Below, in pieces: positions 532-15,219 of a stretch of 35,436 nucleotides of DNA. The notes below the pieces were generated by a model. The model made no database searches. It was not told the origin of the DNA and saw only the letters and a program-made list of their open reading frames with translations. Location: contig JAUSKM010000016.1 of NCBI GenBank assembly GCA_030646955.1, forward strand, positions 1 through 35,436, read 5' to 3'. Both the position numbers and the translations under genes were made by a program. This stretch comes from a bacterium (GTDB lineage: Bacteria; Patescibacteriota; Patescibacteriia; JACPHY01). Position 1 is the stretch's first letter. The number at the start of each line of letters is the position of its first letter.

Positions 532-2190
532 ATGGCTGATACACCGGCGCGGCGCGGGGGAGTGCCTCAAGAAATTCTCGAGGCACTCTACAGCGTTTCC
601 GCCGTGGAGCGCGTCGAGGCAATCGAGGCGGAGCATGGCGTGTCGCTCGCGGTGCCTATTGACCAGCTTGCGACCGGGGACTTGAAGTGGCGTGATTTTG
701 CGGATGCCATCATGCGGCAGGGGAAGACGCCGCAGGAAGCCCAGGAGATTCGGGATCGTGTGTATCGGGAGGTGCTGGCGGACATTTTGCCGAAAATGGA
801 TGCGGATGCCGCGCCACCGACAAAGCCGTTTGCGGACGTGTGTGCGGCGCTCGTGGAGGCGCTGGGTGGGTTGGACGAGCGCCAGCAGAGCCGGTTGCAA
901 GCGATTGCAGAATCATTTCTGCGGAATGCGCGGACAGAGGCACAGACGCGGGATGCGCTCACGCGGAGTCCGAAGATTGGCGGCATCGGACTCTCTGGGA
1001 CGCAGGCAGATGCGACGGTGCAGCTCCTGTCGCAACAGCGCGGATTCGTTGCGTTTGCGGATCACACATCGGTGCAGGAAGTACCGCCAGCAACCTTGCC
1101 GGCGGATGCATTAGCACTCACCGAGGATGAGACGCGGCAGGTTGCGCTGCACGCACGCGAAGTCCCCGCGCGGACGTCGTACGATGCCACAGTGGATAAA
1201 GTGCTCGCGGCAATCGGTGCCACGTTCAAACGGCGTGAAACCGAGCAGCGTTTCCGTGCCGCGCTTGTCGCGCGGTTCCGGGATGTGCGAGACGCGCAGG
1301 AAACCCGTGATTTCCTCACGCGTTCACCCGAGTCCGGCGGTTTGGGCATGCGCGCAGAAACGGCAGCAAAAATCGTGCTCGTCGTGGAGCGTGCATTTCA
1401 GGATCTCCACCACGTCTCCTCGTCCGCACGCAAGCCAGTACCAGCAGCATCGCGGCGCCCATCGTCTGCCGCCGCATCCTTCGTCCCCAGCACGCCAGCA
1501 CCAACCACACCAATCGTGCGCACCCCGCCCGCGCGAACGGTCGTGCCTCCGCCACCACCGCCCTCCTTCTCTCCCCCTCCCCGCGCGGCGGAGGGTGAGG
1601 GAGTGAACACCACCCCTCCCTCCCTCACCCTCCCTCCCCCCGAGTACGCGGAGAGGGAGGGGAACGAAAAATCCTCCTTCTCTCCCCCTCCCCGCGCGGC
1701 GGGGGGAGGGGGAGCTGGAGGGGGAGAGGTGGACCGGAAAGCGGCAATGCCTGCGCTCCCAAGCCAACCGCCCGCAGCAACATCAACTCCCCGGCCCGCA
1801 GGCCCGCAAGCTCTCCGTCCCTCAGGCGGTTCTCCTTCCGGCAAACGGAAAATCGTAGATGTCCGCCCACCGCGCCCGCGGCTCATTGGACCCATTGAAG
1901 AGCTGGAGACGCTCACGGTAGAGGACTTCCGCAAAATTCGGGGAACACCGGCAGAGGTTGCCCAGCGCATCGCACAAAAGCTGGACATCCTGGAGAAGCA
2001 ATCCTACGCCCAGCGCGCCACCGGCCTCCGCGCCCTCCGCGCCAGCCCCCTCATGACCGCCTACGCCGACATCCTCAACACCGCCCTCGCCGAAGGCAAG
2101 AAGGTAGACGACGTGATCGCCGCTGCTGGGACGCTCACCAAAGAAGAATTCTCGGCATTGCGAGAGATGTCCTCTACGATTCGCACCTAA
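532..2190 (+). CDS. Hypothetical protein with internal duplication and repeat-derived Pro-rich linker
   Basis: A 552-residue soluble-looking protein of unknown function. Two related segments (about residues 105-170 and 217-290) share the pattern TRDxLTRSPxxGGxGx, each after an Arg-rich helix, so the N-terminal half is an internal duplication. Residues about 342-400 are Pro/Gly-rich low complexity, encoded by three consecutive copies of the G-rich palindromic repeat found across this window. The C-terminal 110 residues return to a helical, ordered-looking domain. There is no membrane segment. The gene starts four bases after its upstream neighbour and precedes the prgI/virB4 genes, which hints at a role linked to the secretion system. 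That role is inference from position only. Confidence 0.8.
   Translation: MADTPARRGGVPQEILEALYSVSAVERVEAIEAEHGVSLAVPIDQLATGDLKWRDFADAIMRQGKTPQEAQEIRDRVYREVLADILPKMDADAAPPTKPFADVCAALVEALGGLDERQQSRLQAIAESFLRNARTEAQTRDALTRSPKIGGIGLSGTQADATVQLLSQQRGFVAFADHTSVQEVPPATLPADALALTEDETRQVALHAREVPARTSYDATVDKVLAAIGATFKRRETEQRFRAALVARFRDVRDAQETRDFLTRSPESGGLGMRAETAAKIVLVVERAFQDLHHVSSSARKPVPAASRRPSSAAASFVPSTPAPTTPIVRTPPARTVVPPPPPPSFSPPPRAAEGEGVNTTPPSLTLPPPEYAEREGNEKSSFSPPPRAAGGGGAGGGEVDRKAAMPALPSQPPAATSTPRPAGPQALRPSGGSPSGKRKIVDVRPPRPRLIGPIEELETLTVEDFRKIRGTPAEVAQRIAQKLDILEKQSYAQRATGLRALRASPLMTAYADILNTALAEGKKVDDVIAAAGTLTKEEFSALREMSSTIRT
1558..1730 (+). repeat. Three G-rich palindromic repeat units inside a coding region
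   Basis: Three tandem units of the dispersed repeat, with arms of the type CTCCCCCTCCC and GGGAGGGGGAG around short GC-rich loops (near 1567-1601, 1613-1664 and 1678-1729). The reading frame passes through all three without a stop, giving Ser/Pro-rich then Gly/Glu-rich peptide. Confidence 0.85.
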
Positions 2191-2425: not shown

Positions 2426-2854
2426 ATGCAGCAATTCATGGTTCCACAATTCATTGATGCGGAGGATAAGATCTTCGGGCCGATTACGACGCGACAGTTC
2501 CTCATCATACTGGTGGGGGGAGGAGCGATCTTCATCGTGTACAAACTTTTCGCGTTTTGGTCGTTCGCCATCAGCGCACTCGTGATTTTCGCGCTCACCG
2601 GTGCGTTGGCATTCCTGCGCGTGAATGGCATGCCGTTCCACTTTTTTCTCCTGAACCTCGCGCAGACGTTCCGGCATCCGCGCCTGCAGGTGTGGGATAA
2701 ATCACTCACGACTGCCGAGTTGCGTGCCACCGCCAAGGCGCAGGTAGAACCACCGCCCCCCGCACCGCCCAGCAAGCCAGCGCTCTCCGCGACAAAGCTA
2801 CAGGAGCTCTCGCTGGTAGTGAATACTGGGGGTGTGTATCAGGCAGAGACGTGA
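2426..2854 (+). CDS. PrgI-family membrane protein (VirB3-like role)
   Basis: A 142-residue protein with the N-terminal pattern of the PrgI family: a short phrase ending in VPQFIDAEDKIFGPIT, then two hydrophobic helices (about residues 24-40 and 44-64) and a cytosolic C-terminal tail that becomes Pro-rich. PrgI-family proteins lie next to VirB4-like ATPases in Gram-positive conjugation systems and in CPR genomes. They are thought to be small inner-membrane parts analogous to VirB3. The gene is 31 bases upstream of a TraC-like gene and then virB4, as expected. The start has no evident ribosome binding site. The family call is from pattern recognition; function is inferred. Confidence 0.85.
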   Translation: MQQFMVPQFIDAEDKIFGPITTRQFLIILVGGGAIFIVYKLFAFWSFAISALVIFALTGALAFLRVNGMPFHFFLLNLAQTFRHPRLQVWDKSLTTAELRATAKAQVEPPPPAPPSKPALSATKLQELSLVVNTGGVYQAET

Positions 2855-2885
2855 ACGGTATCGCGCTCGTTGCGTGTAGCTTCGT

Positions 2886-3584
2886 ATGGCCAAAGAACCA
2901 AAAAAAGGAGCAGGTGCTCCCAAGAAGAGACCAAAGGCGCCGCCCACGCAGCGGTACCTGGGGTTTCGTGAGATTCGTTCGGATGCGGTCATCATGGGCG
3001 ATGGGACGCTGCGTGCGGTATTGGCGGTATCGAGCATCAACTTTGCATTGAAGTCGGAAGACGAACAGCGGGCGCTCGTCTCGGCGTATGTGCAGTTTCT
3101 CAACGCGTTGGATTACCAGCTCCAGATCGTCGTGCACTCGCGCAAGCTGGATATCAAGCCATACCTCACCAAACTTCAGACCCTGGAAGGGCAGCAGGAG
3201 AATGAGCTACTCAAAGCGCAGATGGCGGACTACCGGTCATTCATCGCGGAGCTGGTGCAGCTGGGCGAAATCATGACGAAATCGTTTTACGTCGTCATCC
3301 CGTACAGCCCGTTCACGGACAAGAAGAAGAGTTTTTACGCGCGGTCGAAAGAGCTGTTCTCTCCGGCACGTTTGGTCCAGATCAAGGAATCGAAGTTCCA
3401 GGAGTACCATCGTGAGCTCATGCAGCGCATCGGGCACGTGCAGGGCGCGCTCAACTCCATCGGCCTCCAGAGTGCGCTGCTGAATACGCAGGCGCTCATT
3501 GAGTTGTTCTACCAGCTCTACAACCCCGTGACCGCCCCCAACGAACCGCTCCAGGAGATGGAACGATATGACGTTGAGCGTTGA
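2886..3584 (+). CDS. TraC/VirB4 N-terminal domain-like protein
   Basis: A 232-residue protein without ATP-binding motifs. After a basic, Pro-rich N-terminus (residues 1-22) comes an alpha/beta region resembling the N-terminal domain of VirB4/TraC ATPases, with the characteristic stretch where a query about cell-surface scaffold is followed by LQIVVHSRKLD and a long helical section. In many bacteria this domain and the ATPase form one VirB4 polypeptide; here they are separate, adjacent genes. Its TGA stop overlaps a possible TTG start of virB4 at 3581, so the two products are probably made together and assemble. It is likely a cytosolic face component of the type IV secretion motor. Confidence 0.8.
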   Translation: MAKEPKKGAGAPKKRPKAPPTQRYLGFREIRSDAVIMGDGTLRAVLAVSSINFALKSEDEQRALVSAYVQFLNALDYQLQIVVHSRKLDIKPYLTKLQTLEGQQENELLKAQMADYRSFIAELVQLGEIMTKSFYVVIPYSPFTDKKKSFYARSKELFSPARLVQIKESKFQEYHRELMQRIGHVQGALNSIGLQSALLNTQALIELFYQLYNPVTAPNEPLQEMERYDVER

Positions 3585-3604
3585 TTGGCAGCAACGGATT
3601 TTCT

Positions 3605-5488
3605 ATGGCCATTGATCCATCATCACTCGCCCCGGCGAGAACGAGCGTTGCACCTTCGGTGCCGCAGACGACACTCCCGGAGGAGCGCATCCTCCTGGAG
3701 GAGGAAAGCGTCTACCGGCAGGGCGTCGTGAGTATTCGGGACCTCATTGCGCCAGCCGCATTGCAGATGCAACCGGATTGCCTTCACCTGGGGGGAAAAT
3801 TTGTGAGTACCGCATTTATCATCGGCTACCCGCGGCATATCGCCGTGGGGTGGTTTGCGCCGATCATAAACATGAATCGGATGCTCGATATCTCGATGTA
3901 CTTCTACCCCGTGAAGACGACCGTCATCCTCAAGCAGCTCCGGAAAAAGGTTGGTGCGCTGGAGGCGCAGATTTTTTCTGATCGCGATTCGGGGAAGCCG
4001 CGCGATGTGAAGAGTGAGACGGCGTTGCGAGATATCGAGCAGCTTCGCGATGACCTTACGCAGGGCACCGAGAAGTTCTTTCAATTCTCGCTCTACATTA
4101 CGATGTACGCGGACACAAAAGATGAACTCAAGCAGGTTGCGGACGATGTGGAACAGCTCATCGGCTCCAAGTCCATCGCGTCCAAGCGCGTGTACTTCCA
4201 GAGCGAGCAGGGGTTCACGTCCACGCTGCCGCTCAATGACGACCAGCTCATGATTTCGTTCAACATGAACTCGTCGCCATGCGCCAGCTCGTTCCCGTTC
4301 ATCTCCAGTGAGCTGACGTCCAACGATGGCGTGCTCTACGGCATCAACCGCCACAACAATTCGCTCATCCTCTTCGATCGGTTCTCGCTGCAGAATGCGA
4401 ACGCGGTGGTGTTTGCCACGTCCGGCGCGGGGAAGAGCTACGCGGTCAAGCTTGAGGTGCTGCGCGCACTCATGCTGGGAACGGACGTCATCGTCATTGA
4501 CCCGGAGATGGAGTACAAACATCTCTCGGATGCGGTGGGCGGCACCTACATTAATATCTCGCTCTCATCTGATGCCAAGGTGAATCCCTTTGACCTCCCG
4601 CGGCCCATCGGGGATGTGGCATTCTCCGTGGATGATATCATCCGCAGCGCGGTGATCACGCTCAAGGGGCTGCTCAAGATCATGATCGGCCCGTTCACCA
4701 CGGAGGAGGACGCGGTTATTGACCGCGGGCTCTTGGAGGTATACGCCAAGCGCGATATCTCACCCATGAGTGACCTGGCCGCGCTGGGGCCGGCGGACAT
4801 GCCAATCATGCAGGACCTCCAGCAGATCCTGGACGGCATGGTGGGCGGGCAAGAGCTTTCGCTGCGGCTCCAGAAGTACACGGACGGAACGTTTGCCGCG
4901 CTTCTGAATGCGCCGACCAATGTGGAGCTTAAGAATCGGCTCGTGGTGTTCTCCGTGCGCGATTTGGAGGACGAGCTGAAGCCCATCGCGATCTACGCGA
5001 TTGTGAATTACATCTGGAACGTCGTGCGGTCCGAGCGCAAGAAGCGCGTGCTGGTGGTGGATGAGGCGTGGTGGCTCATGCAGCGCGAGGACTCTGCCAA
5101 ATTCATCTTTGCGCTCGTGAAGCGGTGCCGAAAGTATTTTCTGGGCGTCACCACCATCACGCAGGATGTCAACGATTTCCTCACCTCGCCGTACGGCCGT
5201 GCGATCGTAACCAATTCGGCGATCCAGCTGCTCCTCAAGCAATCGCCGGCCGCCATTGACCTCGTACAGAAGACCTTCATGCTCACGGAAGGGGAGAAGT
5301 ACCTGCTCCTGGAATCCGGTCCGGGCGAAGGTATCTTCTTTGCCGGCTCTAAGCACGTTGCCATCAAGGTCATCGCCAGCTACACCGAAGACCAGCTCAT
5401 CACCTCTGATCCGCGTCAGCTTCTGGAGATCGAGGCCGCCAAGCAGGAGTTCGACGCGCAGATGGAAGAGCGAAAGATGGGGGAGTGA
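3605..5488 (+). CDS. virB4: VirB4-like type IV secretion ATPase
   Basis: A hexameric AAA+-type ATPase expected to power assembly of, and transport through, a type IV secretion or conjugation channel at the inner membrane. A Walker A motif, SGAGKSYAVKLE, lies near residues 272-283, and a Walker B motif, VLVVDEAWWLM, near 482-492. The DEAWWLM form is typical of VirB4/TraC. The C-terminal segment with QDVNDFL and the following TNSAIQLLLKQ matches the family. I prefer ATG 3605 (627 residues), but an in-frame TTG at 3581 overlaps the previous stop and would add 8 residues. Neither has a clear ribosome binding site. No VirD4 coupling protein is present in the window. Confidence 0.93.
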   Translation: MAIDPSSLAPARTSVAPSVPQTTLPEERILLEEESVYRQGVVSIRDLIAPAALQMQPDCLHLGGKFVSTAFIIGYPRHIAVGWFAPIINMNRMLDISMYFYPVKTTVILKQLRKKVGALEAQIFSDRDSGKPRDVKSETALRDIEQLRDDLTQGTEKFFQFSLYITMYADTKDELKQVADDVEQLIGSKSIASKRVYFQSEQGFTSTLPLNDDQLMISFNMNSSPCASSFPFISSELTSNDGVLYGINRHNNSLILFDRFSLQNANAVVFATSGAGKSYAVKLEVLRALMLGTDVIVIDPEMEYKHLSDAVGGTYINISLSSDAKVNPFDLPRPIGDVAFSVDDIIRSAVITLKGLLKIMIGPFTTEEDAVIDRGLLEVYAKRDISPMSDLAALGPADMPIMQDLQQILDGMVGGQELSLRLQKYTDGTFAALLNAPTNVELKNRLVVFSVRDLEDELKPIAIYAIVNYIWNVVRSERKKRVLVVDEAWWLMQREDSAKFIFALVKRCRKYFLGVTTITQDVNDFLTSPYGRAIVTNSAIQLLLKQSPAAIDLVQKTFMLTEGEKYLLLESGPGEGIFFAGSKHVAIKVIASYTEDQLITSDPRQLLEIEAAKQEFDAQMEERKMGE

Positions 5489-5497
5489 TGATCTGAT

Positions 5498-5549
5498 CCT
5501 CCCCCTCTCCATGTACTCATGGGGAGGGGGAGCGAGAGGGGGAGGGGAT
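5498..5549. repeat. G-rich palindromic repeat
   Basis: CCTCCCCCTCTCC pairs across a short loop with GGGGAGGGGGAG, followed by the usual tail GAGAGGGGGAGGGG. It lies ten bases after the virB4 stop and could act as a transcription stop or RNA-stabilising stem. Confidence 0.85.
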
Positions 5550-5602
5550 CAGGAAGATGGCGGCGAGAAGCATGAAAGCATTACAAGTGATTTTTGTTTC
5601 TC

Positions 5603-5719
5603 TGTCATTGCGGGTCCGCGAAGCAATCCCGGCAACTTGCAGGATCATGCTGCGAACCATCGTGGGGTTGCACTGTGTATGACCGGGATTGTCGCGTCGC
5701 TTCGCTCCTCGCAATGACA
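5603..5719. repeat. Palindromic element with TGTCATTGCG ends, copy 2
   Basis: Inverted ends TGTCATTGCG (5603) and CGCAATGACA (ending 5719). An inner pair of CAATCCCGG and CCGGGATTG is separated by about 50 bases of non-repeat spacer. Same architecture as the copy at 10439-10558. It lies in the 272-base gap between virB4 and the next gene. Confidence 0.85.
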
Positions 5720-5747
5720 CAATACTCGGTCATCACCATCGGATTAG

Positions 5748-5753
5748 TATGAT
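5748..5753 (+). promoter_or_regulatory. Possible -10 box, nearly leaderless start
   Basis: TATGAT ends only seven bases before the ATG at 5761, so a transcript from it would start at or next to the start codon. No ribosome binding site precedes the gene and no good -35 box is seen. Confidence 0.4.
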
Positions 5754-5760
5754 GTAGCTT

Positions 5761-6351
5761 ATGGAAGATCGAACAAAGCGTTTTTTGCTCCTTGGTATCG
5801 GCATCATTGTGCTCATCGCGGTGGTGCTACTCCTCCTGCGTCGAGGCGATGCGCCTGTCTCCGTTACGACACCGAGTGATGATGCTGCCGCGCAGGCCCA
5901 ACCCGTCGTGGGAACTGACGGCCTCACGGGCGCGGGAACTGTTGTGGTGCCAGCGCGGCCATCAGAAGCGACGGCAGTGCGACAGGTGGCGCGGACGTTC
6001 GCGGAGCGACTGGGAAGTTTCTCGAGCGAGGGGGACTTTGTGAATCTAGAGGATCTCTATCCGCTCATGACGGACGCATATCGGCGCGACCGCCAGCAGT
6101 ACGTTGCCGCACAGCGAGCACAGCGCAGCGCCGCAGCTGCGGTGGCATCATCGGCAGTGACCACCGTTGTACTGCAGATTGCCGTTGAGCTTCCAGAAGG
6201 TGATGACTCGAGCACGGCACGCGCAGCGGTAGGAACCCAGCGCACCACGGATGAATTTGGAAAGCCCCCGCGCACGTCCACACAAGATCTCGATCTTGAA
6301 CTTGAAAAAGCAGGGGACCGCTGGCTCGTCAGCAGCGCAGTGTGGAAGTAA
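5761..6351 (+). CDS. Single-pass membrane protein in secretion gene cluster
   Basis: A 196-residue protein of unknown family. A short basic cytosolic N-terminus is followed by one strong hydrophobic helix (about residues 8-26), a Pro/Ala/Thr-rich linker, and an extracellular domain of about 120 residues that ends in an amphipathic strand pattern (DRWLVSSAVWK). The topology and closing strand resemble VirB8-like or other NTF2-like accessory domains, but similarity is too weak to claim. Its position between virB4 and comF suggests a structural subunit of the secretion or uptake apparatus. It may be translated from a leaderless message, because a TATGAT box lies seven bases upstream. Confidence 0.7.
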   Translation: MEDRTKRFLLLGIGIIVLIAVVLLLLRRGDAPVSVTTPSDDAAAQAQPVVGTDGLTGAGTVVVPARPSEATAVRQVARTFAERLGSFSSEGDFVNLEDLYPLMTDAYRRDRQQYVAAQRAQRSAAAAVASSAVTTVVLQIAVELPEGDDSSTARAAVGTQRTTDEFGKPPRTSTQDLDLELEKAGDRWLVSSAVWK

Positions 6352-8321: not shown

Positions 8322-10406
8322 ATGGCCATCCCGACACTTGATCAATCCGTCGCTGATCTTCACCGCATTGGGAAGCAGCTTGCGACGCGGTTACGGCGGT
8401 TGCAGCTTGCGACCGTGCGGGATTTGTTGCTGTACGTGCCGGTGCGGCATGACGATTTGCGTTCGATGACGGACATCGCGGCGCTTGCGCCTGGGGTGCA
8501 GGCCGTGGTGCGTGGGCGGGTGGTTGCTATCGCGAATCGGCGAGCACATCAGCGCCGTATGCTTCTCACGGAAGCGGTGGTGCAGGACGCGACGGGGAGC
8601 GTCCGGTGCGTGTGGTTCCAGCAGCCGTACGTCGCGCACGCGTATCCGGCGGGAACTGCAGTGGTACTGGCCGGCACGCCGACGGTTGATCGGTACGGGC
8701 TGCAGCTCACCTCGCCGGTGATTGAGCGGGATAGCGAGGTGAACCTGCACGCAGGGCGTCTGGTGCCCATCTACGCGCTCACCGCTGGCGTCACGCAGAA
8801 GCAGCTTCGTTTTCTTGTGTCCCTTGCGCTGCCCGCGGCGGGACAGATGACGGATCCATTGTCAGATACAATTCGCGTGCGCGAAAAGTTGTTGTCGCGC
8901 GCGGATGCTATTCGATCGGTGCATTTCCCGGCGGATGATGCCGAGCGGGCGGCGGCGCAGGAGCGGTTGCTGTTTGATGACATCGTGCGATACATCTTGC
9001 GCGTGCGCGCATCACGGGAGGAGATGGAGGAAGCGTGCGCGCCACGCATTATTGTCAATGCGGCGATGGTGGAGCGCGTGAAGGGTGCGCTGCCGTTTGT
9101 GCTGACAGGGGCGCAGGAGCGGGCGGTGGGGGAGATCTTGGGGGATATGACCGCATCCACCCCCCCTCGCCCCCCCTCCCCGCGGGAGGGGGGGGATTTG
9201 GGAGGGAAGCCGATGCAGCGGCTGCTCAATGGGGATGTGGGGTCGGGGAAGACCGCGGTGGCTGCGGTGGCAGCGGCGGTGGTGGCGGATGCGGGGAGGC
9301 AGGTTGCGTACCTCGCGCCAACGGAGGTCCTGACGGTACAGCAGGCGGCGGTGCTCACGCGGTGGCTGCAGCCGCTTGGCATTTCTGTCGCGTGTTGGAC
9401 ACGGACGACGCGTCGTATTGATGGTACGCCCGTGACGCTTGCCGTGCTTCGCGCTGCCGTACGTAGCGGGGCGGTGCGTGTCGTGGTGGGTACCCATGCC
9501 ATCCTTGCGGATGCGGTGCAGTTTTCAGATCTCGCATTGGCAATCATTGACGAGCAGCATCGTTTTGGGGTTGAGCAGCGTGCGGCGCTCCGCAAGAAGG
9601 CGCGGGTGAGCGATGACGGGGTTGCGTGCATGCCACATCTTCTCTCCATGACCGCAACGCCGATTCCGCGGACGCTCCAGCTCTCGCTGTTGGGCGATCT
9701 TGCGGTGTCTGTGTTGGATGAGCGGCCGCAGGCGCGTCGTCCGGTAGCGACCAGCGTGATTGTGCCGGCGAAGCGGCTGGAGATGACGCATGCGCTCAAA
9801 GAAGAGCTTGCGGCGGGGCATCAGGCGTTCATCGTGTGCGGAAAAATTGATGACGATGGCGGTGGAGAGCTTGCGACTGTCACCGAGGCGTTTGAGCGTG
9901 CGAAGCGCGCGTTCCCGGATGCATGCATCGGATTGTTACACGGCCGGATGAAACCGGTGGAGCAGCAGGCGGCGATGGAAGCATTTGCTATGCACGAGAC
10001 GGATATTCTCGTTGCAACCACCGTCATTGAGGTGGGCGTGGACCAGCCAAACGCCACCCTTATGATTATCGAGGATGCGGAGCGCTTCGGGCACTCGCAA
10101 CTACACCAGCTTCGCGGCCGCGTGGGGCGCGGGGCGGCGCCCGGGCGTTGTTTTTTGGCGACGCGGGTGGATGCGCCGCAGGTGCGAGCGCACTTGTCGC
10201 GTGTTGCGCAGACAACGGATGGATTTGCGCTCGCCGAGTTTGATCTGGCACGGCGCGGCCCGGGTGCAATTTTTGGAACCATGCAGTCGGGGCATGACGT
10301 ATTTCCGATCTGGGAGATGGATCCCGCGCTCCTCGATCGAGCGCGGCGTGTGGCGGGGGAGATCGCTGCAAGCGATGCGGGCGTGACCGCGGCGCATTTG
10401 GAATGA
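8322..10406 (+). CDS. recG: ATP-dependent DNA helicase RecG
   Basis: Branched-DNA translocase that reverses stalled forks and processes recombination intermediates. At 694 residues it is of normal family length. It has an N-terminal OB-fold wedge domain (about residues 50-160), Walker A GDVGSGKT (about 304-311), a DEQH box within IIDEQHRFGVEQR (about 408-420), helicase motif III SMTATPIPRT, and the C-terminal RecG blocks GLLHGRM and QLHQLRGRVGRG. An insertion of about 18 residues (279-297) directly before the Walker A segment is encoded by the G-rich palindromic repeat; relatives normally join these blocks by a short turn. A weak ribosome binding site (GAGGAAGG) lies about nine bases before the ATG. 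It is convergent with radA. Confidence 0.96.
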   Translation: MAIPTLDQSVADLHRIGKQLATRLRRLQLATVRDLLLYVPVRHDDLRSMTDIAALAPGVQAVVRGRVVAIANRRAHQRRMLLTEAVVQDATGSVRCVWFQQPYVAHAYPAGTAVVLAGTPTVDRYGLQLTSPVIERDSEVNLHAGRLVPIYALTAGVTQKQLRFLVSLALPAAGQMTDPLSDTIRVREKLLSRADAIRSVHFPADDAERAAAQERLLFDDIVRYILRVRASREEMEEACAPRIIVNAAMVERVKGALPFVLTGAQERAVGEILGDMTASTPPRPPSPREGGDLGGKPMQRLLNGDVGSGKTAVAAVAAAVVADAGRQVAYLAPTEVLTVQQAAVLTRWLQPLGISVACWTRTTRRIDGTPVTLAVLRAAVRSGAVRVVVGTHAILADAVQFSDLALAIIDEQHRFGVEQRAALRKKARVSDDGVACMPHLLSMTATPIPRTLQLSLLGDLAVSVLDERPQARRPVATSVIVPAKRLEMTHALKEELAAGHQAFIVCGKIDDDGGGELATVTEAFERAKRAFPDACIGLLHGRMKPVEQQAAMEAFAMHETDILVATTVIEVGVDQPNATLMIIEDAERFGHSQLHQLRGRVGRGAAPGRCFLATRVDAPQVRAHLSRVAQTTDGFALAEFDLARRGPGAIFGTMQSGHDVFPIWEMDPALLDRARRVAGEIAASDAGVTAAHLE
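9160..9208. repeat. G-rich palindromic repeat inside recG (inverted orientation)
   Basis: CCCCCCTCGCCCCCCCTCCCC, read with its partner GGGAGGGGGGGA, is the repeat in reverse orientation relative to most copies. The reading frame is kept and gives a Pro/Arg then Gly-rich peptide. Confidence 0.85.
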
Positions 10407-11993: not shown

Positions 11994-13319
11994 CTAGGTA
12001 CACGGATTGGACATCGGCGTTGATTCAAAGTGCCACGCCTCGCGTTGCCAGTTACAGAAGCCGGCGGCGCGCATCGCTTGGATAACTTTCGCCTGACAAT
12101 CGTTCTGTCTGCACGGATCGTTGGCTGGATTTTTCGTGTCGCACTTCCTTTGACTGATACATTGTCTTCCATTTTTTGCCCCCCAGACGTCAATGGCGTT
12201 CCCCGTCGTGTGCGGGCAGCTTTGGGGGCCACGATAGAGCATGCACGTCGGCGGCTTACAGGATTTTGAGTTCTTGGGGTCGTCGCAGTTTTTGGTGATC
12301 AGCGCTCGTTGTTTTTCCTCGCTGCGGTATCCAGAAGTTACCCAGAGTTCGATGCCGTCATCGCTGAGCCTGAAAGCGGCGACATTCAGCTTAGACAAAA
12401 GTGTCCGATCAATGGTTTGCGGGCCGGAATCCTTGCTTGGAATATTTTTGATGTTTGTCCCCGCGACTTCTACGATGTCACCGGATACCTGTCCGTTTAC
12501 CTCCTCCGGCTCCTCCTCGAGCGTCAAATTCTCGCGCGCGATGAGGTCCACGCGTAGCGCGGTGAGGCGGACGAGATCAGGGTTGACGAGGTTGAGGATG
12601 AAATAGGAACCCACGAGGAGGATGAGGCCGATTGCGGCATTGGTGATCATGCCCTCCGCCTTCGTAATGGATCCCGTTGCGCCGGAAGTCATCCAAATCA
12701 TTCCGCCAATCATCATGATGATGACGGCGAGCACCGCGCCAAACGGAACCGCCCAGCGGTACACGGCCGCGATGTACTGCGCAATCCAGGGGACGGTGAT
12801 GTATTTTCCTCCGTCGTCATTCTCCACCTGGAGTTGTTTGAAGGAGAGGTTGGGCAGCGCGATGTTGATTTTTGGCTGGACAGGGGTGATGACGAAGGCA
12901 TCATTCGGATCTGGCGGTGCAGCGGCCTCTCGGATGACGCAGGTGCCCATGGTCTCAGGGAAGTCGCGGTCCGAGCTGGCGTTGTAGAAGGATGCTGCAT
13001 ATCCCTCGCACGCCATCCCCGCATTGCAGTCACTGTTTGTTCGGCACTGATTCCCGAGACCCCCCATAACCCCAGGACAACCTAATGTCGTTGCGCATGG
13101 CACGAGTTTGCATGATGTAGGAGCGGTCGCGAATGTGTCACATTGGAGTCCTTCGACGCAAGTTTTTCCGCCACCCGCACCTGCGAGGCCGTAGAGTGTG
13201 CATGTGACCGCAGCGATACTAACAGCAGGAACGACCATAAACGCGCCCATCAGGAGGGCGATAGCCATGCGGCTTGCGTTGTACGTCCTGTGTCGTGTGA
13301 TGTTCGGAGTGCGTTTCAT
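11994..13319 (-). CDS. Cys-rich VirB2-like pilin domain fused to M15 (VanY-like) metallopeptidase
   Basis: A 441-residue protein with four parts: an N-terminal signal or anchor helix (about residues 18-38); an extracellular Cys-rich segment with ten cysteines (40-127); two hydrophobic helices (about 187-210 and 224-246) with the Gly-rich spacing of VirB2/TrbC pilins; and a C-terminal D,D-carboxypeptidase-like M15 domain. The last shows SGYRS (329-333) and predicted zinc ligands H370, D377 (in HTTGNAID) and H430 (in EAWHFE). This domain also has ten cysteines. The likely role is a secretion-channel or surface subunit that opens peptidoglycan. A TTG at 13355 overlapping the dsbA-like stop is an alternative start. 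Confidence 0.85.
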   Translation of the reverse strand: MKRTPNITRHRTYNASRMAIALLMGAFMVVPAVSIAAVTCTLYGLAGAGGGKTCVEGLQCDTFATAPTSCKLVPCATTLGCPGVMGGLGNQCRTNSDCNAGMACEGYAASFYNASSDRDFPETMGTCVIREAAAPPDPNDAFVITPVQPKINIALPNLSFKQLQVENDDGGKYITVPWIAQYIAAVYRWAVPFGAVLAVIIMMIGGMIWMTSGATGSITKAEGMITNAAIGLILLVGSYFILNLVNPDLVRLTALRVDLIARENLTLEEEPEEVNGQVSGDIVEVAGTNIKNIPSKDSGPQTIDRTLLSKLNVAAFRLSDDGIELWVTSGYRSEEKQRALITKNCDDPKNSKSCKPPTCMLYRGPQSCPHTTGNAIDVWGAKNGRQCISQRKCDTKNPANDPCRQNDCQAKVIQAMRAAGFCNWQREAWHFESTPMSNPCT

Positions 13320-13351
13320 GGGGTTGGTTGCGAGAGATTTTTGCGTTTTCT

Positions 13352-13969
13352 TCAACGTAGGTTCTTTAGTACTGTGTCGAATGCGCCCGGAGTTGGTGTT
13401 GCCTCGAGGCGCTTGCCATCCACGAAGAATTCCGGCGTTCCGGTGACGCCCACGCGCGCCGCTTCTTGCTCGTTGGCGCGGATGCGGGCGGTGATGCTCG
13501 GATCGCGCTGGCAGGTTGCGAATGCCGTCATGTTGAGGCCGAGCTGTGTCGCGAGCGCGGTAATTTCGGCGTCCGTCCGCGGCTGCTGTTCAAAGAGCGC
13601 GCGGTGGAATGCGGGGAATGCATCTTGGCGTGCTGCGCAGCGAGCGGCAACGTGGCGTGGAAGGGATTGTGCGACACCGGCAAGGTGCGGCAGGTCCTTC
13701 CAGACCACGCGGACATCGTTCCGGCTCTCCAGTATCCCATCGAGCACGCGCTGGATGTCTGCGCACGCAGGGCATGCGTAGTCGCCAAATTCCACGATCG
13801 TGTGCGCGGCGTTGCGTGGGCCAAGAATGAGATCATCTCCCGCGACCGTGGGAGCAGCGGCTGTACGCGGGAGCTGCGGTGCGTCGGGCGTGGTGCGTGT
13901 CGGCGGCCGCATTGCCCAGAGCGCTGCGGCACCGGCGATGATGAGCACCGCAAAGAACGCGCGTCGCAT
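13352..13969 (-). CDS. DsbA/BdbD-like membrane-anchored thiol oxidoreductase
   Basis: A 205-residue protein with an N-terminal signal or anchor helix (about residues 4-19), a short Thr/Pro linker, and a DsbA-type thioredoxin fold. The active site is CPAC (C66, C69) within FGDYACPAC, and the cis-Pro loop is GVTGTPEFFV. Such proteins form or exchange disulfides outside the cytoplasmic membrane; B. subtilis BdbD does so for competence proteins. It is immediately upstream of, and may overlap, a gene for a 20-cysteine membrane protein, its probable substrate. No DsbB/BdbC or VKOR partner gene is seen in the window. It starts five bases after the TolB-like stop. Confidence 0.88.
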   Translation of the reverse strand: MRRAFFAVLIIAGAAALWAMRPPTRTTPDAPQLPRTAAAPTVAGDDLILGPRNAAHTIVEFGDYACPACADIQRVLDGILESRNDVRVVWKDLPHLAGVAQSLPRHVAARCAARQDAFPAFHRALFEQQPRTDAEITALATQLGLNMTAFATCQRDPSITARIRANEQEAARVGVTGTPEFFVDGKRLEATPTPGAFDTVLKNLR

Positions 13970-13974
13970 ACGGG

Positions 13975-15219
13975 TTAGCGTAGCTGCATCTCGTGGAGCA
14001 GTCCGTCGCGTTGTGCAACGAAGTAGAGGGTGGCGCCATCAGGCGAGACGGTGAGCTGCTGAATGCTGGTCGCGTCCTCTGGCCGGCCAACTACATGGCG
14101 CGCGCCGCTTACGAGGTCAATGCGTTCGATGGTATCCGGCACCGTATCTGCAAGCTCTGGCTGGAGTCCGTACCCGCGCTGCAGGGTGTCCGGCACTGCG
14201 CAGAAGAGCGTCGTGTTGCTTCCAAATACGCACTTGTCTGCCCAGGTGTCCACGTGCAAGCGGCGACGGTTCTCGCCGATGCGATCGCCGGAGCCGTCCA
14301 CAATCCAGAGTTCGGGCTTGTAATCGTTTGTGTCGTGGACGGCGCTGTAGAGGAGGTGCTGCCCATCCGGGGACCAGCTGGGGCGGAAATCAAATCCCTC
14401 CACGGTCAGACCGGCAAAGTTCTCTCGGTTGCGCCCGATGGGCAGAATGAACTGCCGGAGGCCGCCGATCGCACGGCCGGTTCGCGAGAAGGCGATGATT
14501 TGCTCGTTGGGGGAGAAGGAGACGGTTACCTTATCCGCGTTTGCGCCCAGGGGCTCAAGCGGTCGGAAGTTTCCGCCGTCCGGATCCGCTTCAAAGAGGA
14601 ATCGGTTTTCCTGATCGAGATCCAGCGTGAGGCCAGCGATGCGATCGCCGCGGCCGGAGAATGAGAATGCAGTCCAATGCGCGGGGAGCGTCACTTGCCG
14701 GTCTGTCGCGAAATCGTAGAAGATGTTTGCGCCATCTGGGAATTCGATGATCGCGCGGTCTGCGTTGGGTGCCCAGGCAATGGTGCGCGCATTGGGGAAC
14801 GTCTGCTCCGAAAGCGCGCGCGCAGTTCCGTCGCGTTCAACGCGATAGAATTGTTCTGTGGTGACATCGTAGTACTGGGGGCGTCCGTCTGGTGCAACGC
14901 GCGTAAAAGCAGCCGGCGTTACCGTGAGTGCGGGCGTTGCGGTGCGGCCGCCATTCGCAGTGGTGGGGAGCACTGCCGCTGTTGGTGCGGCAGTTGGTGC
15001 GCCGGTCACGGGAGTAAGCCCGCCAGGGGATACGGGGATGGGTTGGCCGGACGGTGCAACGGGAAGCGGTTCCACAGGCGTTGGCGGGGTACCACTGGTA
15101 CTTGGCGGTGCGGGTATCGTGGGTTCCGGAACGCGGAAGAACACCGCGTAGAGCGCGTAGCCAAGCAGCGCGACAATCACGAGGAGCCCGGCACCGATGA
15201 AGAGTTTACGGCGATCCAT
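13975..15219 (-). CDS. Membrane-anchored TolB-like beta-propeller protein
   Basis: A 414-residue protein with a short basic start, one hydrophobic helix (about residues 7-28), a Pro/Thr-rich extracellular linker to about residue 110, and then repeated WD40/PD40-type blades. Blades are seen as SxDGxxLxY-like phrases, for example WSPDGQHLLYSA, SPNEQIIAFSR and SPDGATLYFVA. This is the TolB-type propeller fold, likely a surface scaffold rather than an enzyme. It lies between the 184-residue membrane protein and the dsbA-like gene with gaps of 15 and 5 bases, so it belongs to the same operon as the pilin/peptidase fusion. There is no ribosome binding site at the start. Confidence 0.78.
   Translation of the reverse strand: MDRRKLFIGAGLLVIVALLGYALYAVFFRVPEPTIPAPPSTSGTPPTPVEPLPVAPSGQPIPVSPGGLTPVTGAPTAAPTAAVLPTTANGGRTATPALTVTPAAFTRVAPDGRPQYYDVTTEQFYRVERDGTARALSEQTFPNARTIAWAPNADRAIIEFPDGANIFYDFATDRQVTLPAHWTAFSFSGRGDRIAGLTLDLDQENRFLFEADPDGGNFRPLEPLGANADKVTVSFSPNEQIIAFSRTGRAIGGLRQFILPIGRNRENFAGLTVEGFDFRPSWSPDGQHLLYSAVHDTNDYKPELWIVDGSGDRIGENRRRLHVDTWADKCVFGSNTTLFCAVPDTLQRGYGLQPELADTVPDTIERIDLVSGARHVVGRPEDATSIQQLTVSPDGATLYFVAQRDGLLHEMQLR

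Follow-up and report, generated by a model that had tools for sequence, protein, structure and literature searches.

Does a wall-cutting enzyme built into a pilin-like protein serve a type IV secretion system (T4SS), taking the place of the separate hydrolase used elsewhere? The window, i.e. the whole 35,436-nt stretch of DNA analysed here, raises this question because one of its minus-strand genes joins a VirB2-like hairpin to a predicted M15 peptidase (Table 1; residue numbers follow the ATG start). The Patescibacteria that carry this fusion are ultra-small and probably host-dependent. According to the main text of PMC12102498, most Patescibacteria with VirB2 lack VirB1, with PF18895 proteins being counted as VirB2, and the rarity of VirB1 led to the conclusion that the pilus can do without a wall hydrolase. 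PMC11665869 describes what the T4SS does in Patescibacteria as completely unknown.

Table 1. Features of the fusion gene and of its locus in the window
Feature	Positions	Strand	Basis or remark
Pilin-anchored M15 peptidase fusion, 441 aa (ATG)	11994..13319	-	alternative TTG start at 13355 (11994-13355)
Putative signal peptide / N-terminal hydrophobic helix, residues ~1-36	13212..13319	-	sequence; AlphaFold2 helix 10-28
Cys-rich N-terminal part, predicted extracellular, residues ~37-171, 10 Cys	12807..13211	-	
T4SS_pilin / VirB2-like two-helix hairpin, residues 172-262, 0 Cys	12534..12806	-	PF18895, AlphaFold2 helices, relatives
Predicted M15 (VanY/VanX/LdcB-like) zinc peptidase, residues 305-441, 10 Cys	11997..12407	-	Pfam, profile, Foldseek
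DsbA-like thioredoxin-fold oxidoreductase (CPAC), directly upstream	13352..13969	-	PF13462 3.3e-23, PF01323 8.6e-20; synteny
TM-anchored PD40 / TolB-like beta-propeller, conserved slot partner	13975..15219	-	PF07676 2.5e-12; synteny
Conserved gene preceding PrgI in T4SS operon	532..2190	+	synteny
PrgI (VirB3-like)	2426..2854	+	PF12666 7.3e-9
TraC/TrsD-like VirB4 N-terminal part, separate gene	2886..3584	+	profile matches
VirB4 ATPase (CD1110 family)	3581..5488	+	NF045971 2.1e-103, above cut-off
Single-TM protein beside VirB4, conserved	5761..6351	+	synteny
RecG, conserved boundary gene facing slot	8322..10406	+	own sequence; synteny

The initial annotation had described a VirB2-like double helix and an M15 domain with complete-looking zinc ligands as parts of a single chain, with ten cysteines in each extracellular part. 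The first claim is borne out by Pfam, Foldseek, an AlphaFold2 model built on nine relatives and conservation of the fusion; the second was confirmed by counting 10 cysteines before the hairpin, none within it and 10 after. The single sequence matches T4SS_pilin (PF18895) with E=5e-4 and 20.5 bits, under the curated threshold of 26.6, and we term it pilin-like and not a PF18895 member by its own score; PF18895 was found at E≤0.001 in 49 of 62 fusions, relatives reaching 1.8e-10. Behind the signal helix the model places helices at residues 176-211 and 217-245, giving the predicted signal peptide and two-helix hydrophobic hairpin of a T4SS_pilin, a layout that, like the T4SS locus, is shared with VirB2/TrbC and PF18895 pilins. 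Short pilins fill most Patescibacterial arrays, being mostly single-domain proteins of 100-150 aa (main text of PMC12102498), whereas the fusion carries large, presumably disulfide-rich parts at both ends, one of them a predicted enzyme. For the N-terminal Cys-rich part no fold was predicted by AlphaFold2 (mean pLDDT 57 over residues 27-179).

The M15 assignment was approached with single-sequence, profile and structure comparisons. VanY (PF02557) matches the fusion just under its curated cut-off (24.3 bits against 25, E=3e-5; Pfam, single sequence) and is detected in 27 of 62 fusions, the best at 1e-12. Searching the PDB with a profile built from six M15 domains of fusions gave VanX (1r44) first at 1.5e-7, followed by YodJ and LdcB. 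In the AlphaFold2 model, pLDDT is mostly 77-91 over residues 281-440, with a dip to 68-69 at 351-370, and the predicted structure has the M15 fold: when it was compared with PDB structures by Foldseek, the first 14 matches were without exception M15 enzymes, including VanX, Ply500, LdcB and VanYB (best E=3.9e-6). The zinc ligands first proposed, H370, D377 and H430, stand; the catalytic glutamate, E427, had been missing from that proposal. With H/D/H ligands, the glutamate and the fold in place, peptidase activity (D,D- or L,D-) is predicted. Fold, ligands and glutamate are common to VanX, VanY, LdcB/YodJ and Ply500, from which the fusion is set apart by ten extra cysteines, the pilin anchor and the T4SS context.

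The window contains two groups of genes that may belong together, with PrgI, a split VirB4 and the single-TM gene at 2426-6351 on the plus strand and the PD40, DsbA and fusion genes at 11994-15219 on the minus strand. They are separated by ComF, RecG and tRNA genes, which leaves the fusion and the VirB4 operon about 6.5 kb apart; a VirB8-like role for the single-TM gene is a guess. The PD40-DsbA-fusion order facing RecG recurs over about 75 loci, at some of which DsbA was undetected, and PrgI-VirB4 falls inside the extracted locus stretch at 19 loci. At L043, L140, L144-L148, L160 and L174 the order is joined directly to X-PrgI-VirB4-TM-pilin, where X is the gene before PrgI, so that the window arrangement looks like the split form of a single operon. 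Synteny thus puts the gene in or beside a T4SS operon, as is the case for VirB1-type hydrolases. Named relatives with the fusion include Uhrbacteria, Veblenbacteria and Kerfeldbacteria, which we take to belong to class ABY1. This placement is supported by the comF-recG-radA neighbourhood, which fits the ABY1 T4SS locus of PMC12102498 and identifies it as the locus of the window; the main text of that paper leaves fused hydrolases, DsbA and the slot unmentioned. At the directly joined loci, the pilin genes between VirB4 and PD40 have Cys-rich C-terminal parts with even cysteine counts that matched no Pfam family; they are possible adhesins.

To see what else the slot holds, pilin fusions whose C-terminal parts are at least 100 aa long were clustered by sequence; the 120 fusions fell into 50 clusters. 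Pfam recognised M15, SLT, M23, C39, Amidase_2 and M15_4 over or near the cut-offs in these parts and NlpC/P60 just under, and two further clusters resemble Cys peptidases without having a Pfam name. The second of these had no match in a profile search of the PDB, and its odd cysteine count supports a catalytic cysteine. Fisher tests, which ignore relatedness, contrasted 58 Pfam-recognised hydrolases among 95 genes behind DsbA/PD40 with none among 19 pilin genes before PD40 (p=2e-7); as twenty loci had been picked through an M15 match, we also give the figure for loci picked by the pilin match alone (24/55 vs 0/15, p=0.001). On the pilin-domain tree, 36 enzyme changes were counted as compared to 41.5 after shuffling of the labels, the lowest of 200 shuffles giving 37. 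Because trees of 90 residues resolve poorly, we relied on comparisons within families. In family f31, pilin parts 51-54% identical across three genera carry unrelated C-terminal parts, SLT-like, M15 and NlpC/P60, the M15 part being recognisably shared with another family; in f29, pilin parts 60% identical are followed by M15 or by a Cys enzyme without a Pfam name.

Comparable chains occur beyond the class. At L186, which belongs to another class, each chain has a pilin with SLT and either an amidase or GDSL, the pilin and at least one enzyme scoring over curated cut-offs: the pilin reaches 44-45 bits (cut-off 26.6) together with Amidase_2 at 76.5 (26) or SLT at 34.5 (21.3). Also outside the class, a pilin next to VirB4 at L191 contains what by eye is an M15-like motif. 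As far as sequence comparison goes, the window protein thus belongs to a wider set that the initial annotation had missed, with one kind of anchor, in one genomic slot, joined to several unrelated putative wall hydrolases. Three further observations concern the range of domains. The GDSL esterase domain stands behind a transglycosylase in pilin fusions at L125 and L186, perhaps for wall or polysaccharide deacetylation. At locus L132 (6142-11447) five pilin fusions stand in tandem, and at least four kinds of enzyme-like domain follow their hairpins. A domain with GSCGNT and PGD...G.HA motifs and an odd cysteine count (alignment A5: L120, L122, L123, L131, L136, L139, L155) is a candidate new Cys-peptidase family on the pilin anchor.

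The cysteines follow the type of enzyme. C-terminal parts with a metal or glycan (non-Cys) enzyme have an even count in 55 of 57 fusions and an odd count in 2, whereas all 17 with an enzyme that is, or resembles, a Cys nucleophile are odd (p=7e-15); two Cys-like clusters among the latter were grouped by motif inspection before the count, and without them the numbers are 0 even and 8 odd. In cytoplasmic control genes, where 36 counts are even and 51 odd, this bias is absent. This parity suggests that the odd cysteine is the catalytic one and that nearly all others in the enzyme part are probably paired, although the Cys columns appear as a block and individual disulfide pairs cannot be named. 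The adjacent DsbA gene and a VKOR gene in the window's genome fit the disulfide reading, lending support to the many disulfides that the initial annotation had proposed; cysteine content did not differ clearly with DsbA presence (p=0.12). Beside the fusions, all 55 PD40 propeller genes of the slot have an even cysteine count, 2.1 on average, which suggests one disulfide in each. The window's genome and a sister species also have a second DsbA-pilin pair with an unassigned Cys-rich C-terminal part (L045, G000:C40 11710-12876, and L046). In the window's genome, L048 (G000:C25) encodes two pilin-domain proteins of great length, of which one has 36 cysteines after the hairpin.

In the reading that we regard as probable, the protein is a peptidoglycan hydrolase that is secreted and stays anchored in the membrane, tethered to the chromosomal Patescibacterial T4SS by its pilin-derived anchor and replacing a separate VirB1. 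What carries this reading can be seen in the genes themselves: the fusion, the apparently intact site, the conserved slot, the link to the T4SS operon, the enzyme swaps and the cysteine parity. The fusion would be exported by Sec, its hairpin would span the membrane with both ends outside, and DsbA, recycled by VKOR, would close the disulfides of both outer parts. Co-assembled with the T4SS, the M15 domain would then cut stem peptides of the peptidoglycan close to the secretion machinery, a job done elsewhere by VirB1. Against this reading count the distance and opposite strand of the VirB4 operon in the window, the sub-threshold pilin score and the loci without a detected DsbA. A further point against it is that some M15 enzymes merely trim terminal D-Ala as carboxypeptidases, whereas opening a wall needs endopeptidase activity. 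The subunit that the initial annotation had proposed, one that would join the channel and open the wall, is partly supported. If the job of the slot is wall cutting, whichever bond is cut, many enzyme folds would be tolerated there. VirB1-type hydrolases (VirB1, TraG of pIP501, PrgK, CD419) likewise have genes linked to a T4SS, and the slot shares SLT and NlpC/CHAP-like activities with them, SLT having been found there in other genomes. Unlike the fusion, in which M15 or a swapped enzyme is joined to a pilin-like anchor, they are separate proteins without a pilin domain. The window enzyme lacks the lytic transglycosylase domain of VirB1, alone or with CHAP, and we count it as working like VirB1 and not as a member of that family.

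As to which wall is cut, we lean slightly towards the host wall or contact zone over the cell's own wall, because the enzyme type turns over fast. A stronger version of this, compatible with the tethered hydrolase, has the enzymes displayed outward to breach the host wall in epibiosis or predation, with swaps tracking host wall chemistry; we hold it tentatively, as a serious possibility. It would account for enzymes that change quickly while the anchor is conserved, and in Southlakia the T4SS is essential for epibiotic growth (PMC10633639). D-Ala-D-Ala ligase (Ddl, PF07478) was not found in searches of the window's genome (G000) or of its two nearest relatives (G001, G002), and is rarer in genomes with an M15 fusion (13/27 vs 26/33, p=0.017), indicating that the cell's own D-Ala-D-Ala is not an obvious substrate. 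However, when signs of a wall-less lifestyle were sought to tell own wall from host wall, each of the 60 genomes examined proved to have Mur ligases and transpeptidases, Ddl being patchy, and these cells thus retain a wall of their own to cross.

Two other readings concern what the hairpin does, and we doubt both. The protein could be a VirB2-derived pilin with an exchangeable, disulfide-armoured hydrolase, located in the pilus or at its base and swapped to suit the wall of the attacked host, which seems unlikely. The hairpin could also have become a membrane anchor only, its enzyme serving wall upkeep or division without a physical T4SS link. The diverged pilin domain, scoring below the family threshold, and the long extensions at both ends, foreign to the short pilins of the arrays, would fit such an origin, as would the many fusion copies that are not right beside VirB4 in the extracted locus stretch and the presence of the cell's own wall genes. 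Yet adjacency to PrgI-VirB4 is repeated, the same locus is kept across the whole class, the hairpin is still recognisable as PF18895 in most fusions and such a range of enzymes is seen on this anchor alone, making this reading improbable.

Conservation of the chain bears on two further readings. Full-length relatives (49% in the same genus, 46% in the same family) occur in other families as well, and when 381 genomes of the class were searched with a profile of the M15 part, 93 had a match; among the best 30 of these 93, nearly all have the same pilin-like hairpin fused. A catalytically dead, peptidoglycan-binding M15 module would be in keeping with the low similarity to known M15 enzymes and a Pfam score slightly below the cut-off, but H370, D377, E427 and H430 are invariant in all 33 complete copies among 34 fused M15 parts despite low overall identity (R332 being kept in the 34), and other occupants of the slot are enzymes too, leaving this very improbable. 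Both caveats of the initial annotation, on active-site geometry and on read-through, are answered: the M15 fold is predicted, and in relatives the hairpin and the M15 domain are not separate genes. The same fusion was found in other CPR T4SS clusters with a conserved locus order across genomes. A joining of two genes by read-through, misassembly or chance is excluded for practical purposes by the same one-chain fusion in about 34 genomes from many families of the class, without internal stops.

A search of open-access papers turned up no earlier report of the fusion: the main text of PMC12102498 names no pilin-hydrolase fusion, and none appears in the searched passages of PMC12857230 and PMC11665869. 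In Paceibacteria, T4SS pilins and peptidoglycan-binding enzymes are highly expressed and are listed as separate items (PMC10936435). A wall hydrolase fused to a pilin domain supplies actual genes in answer to the missing VirB1, and the reading can be tested through the enzyme swaps and the cysteine parity. Counts of VirB2-like genes in Patescibacteria would include surface enzymes, and the fusion may explain how the Patescibacterial secretion machine passes a cell wall.
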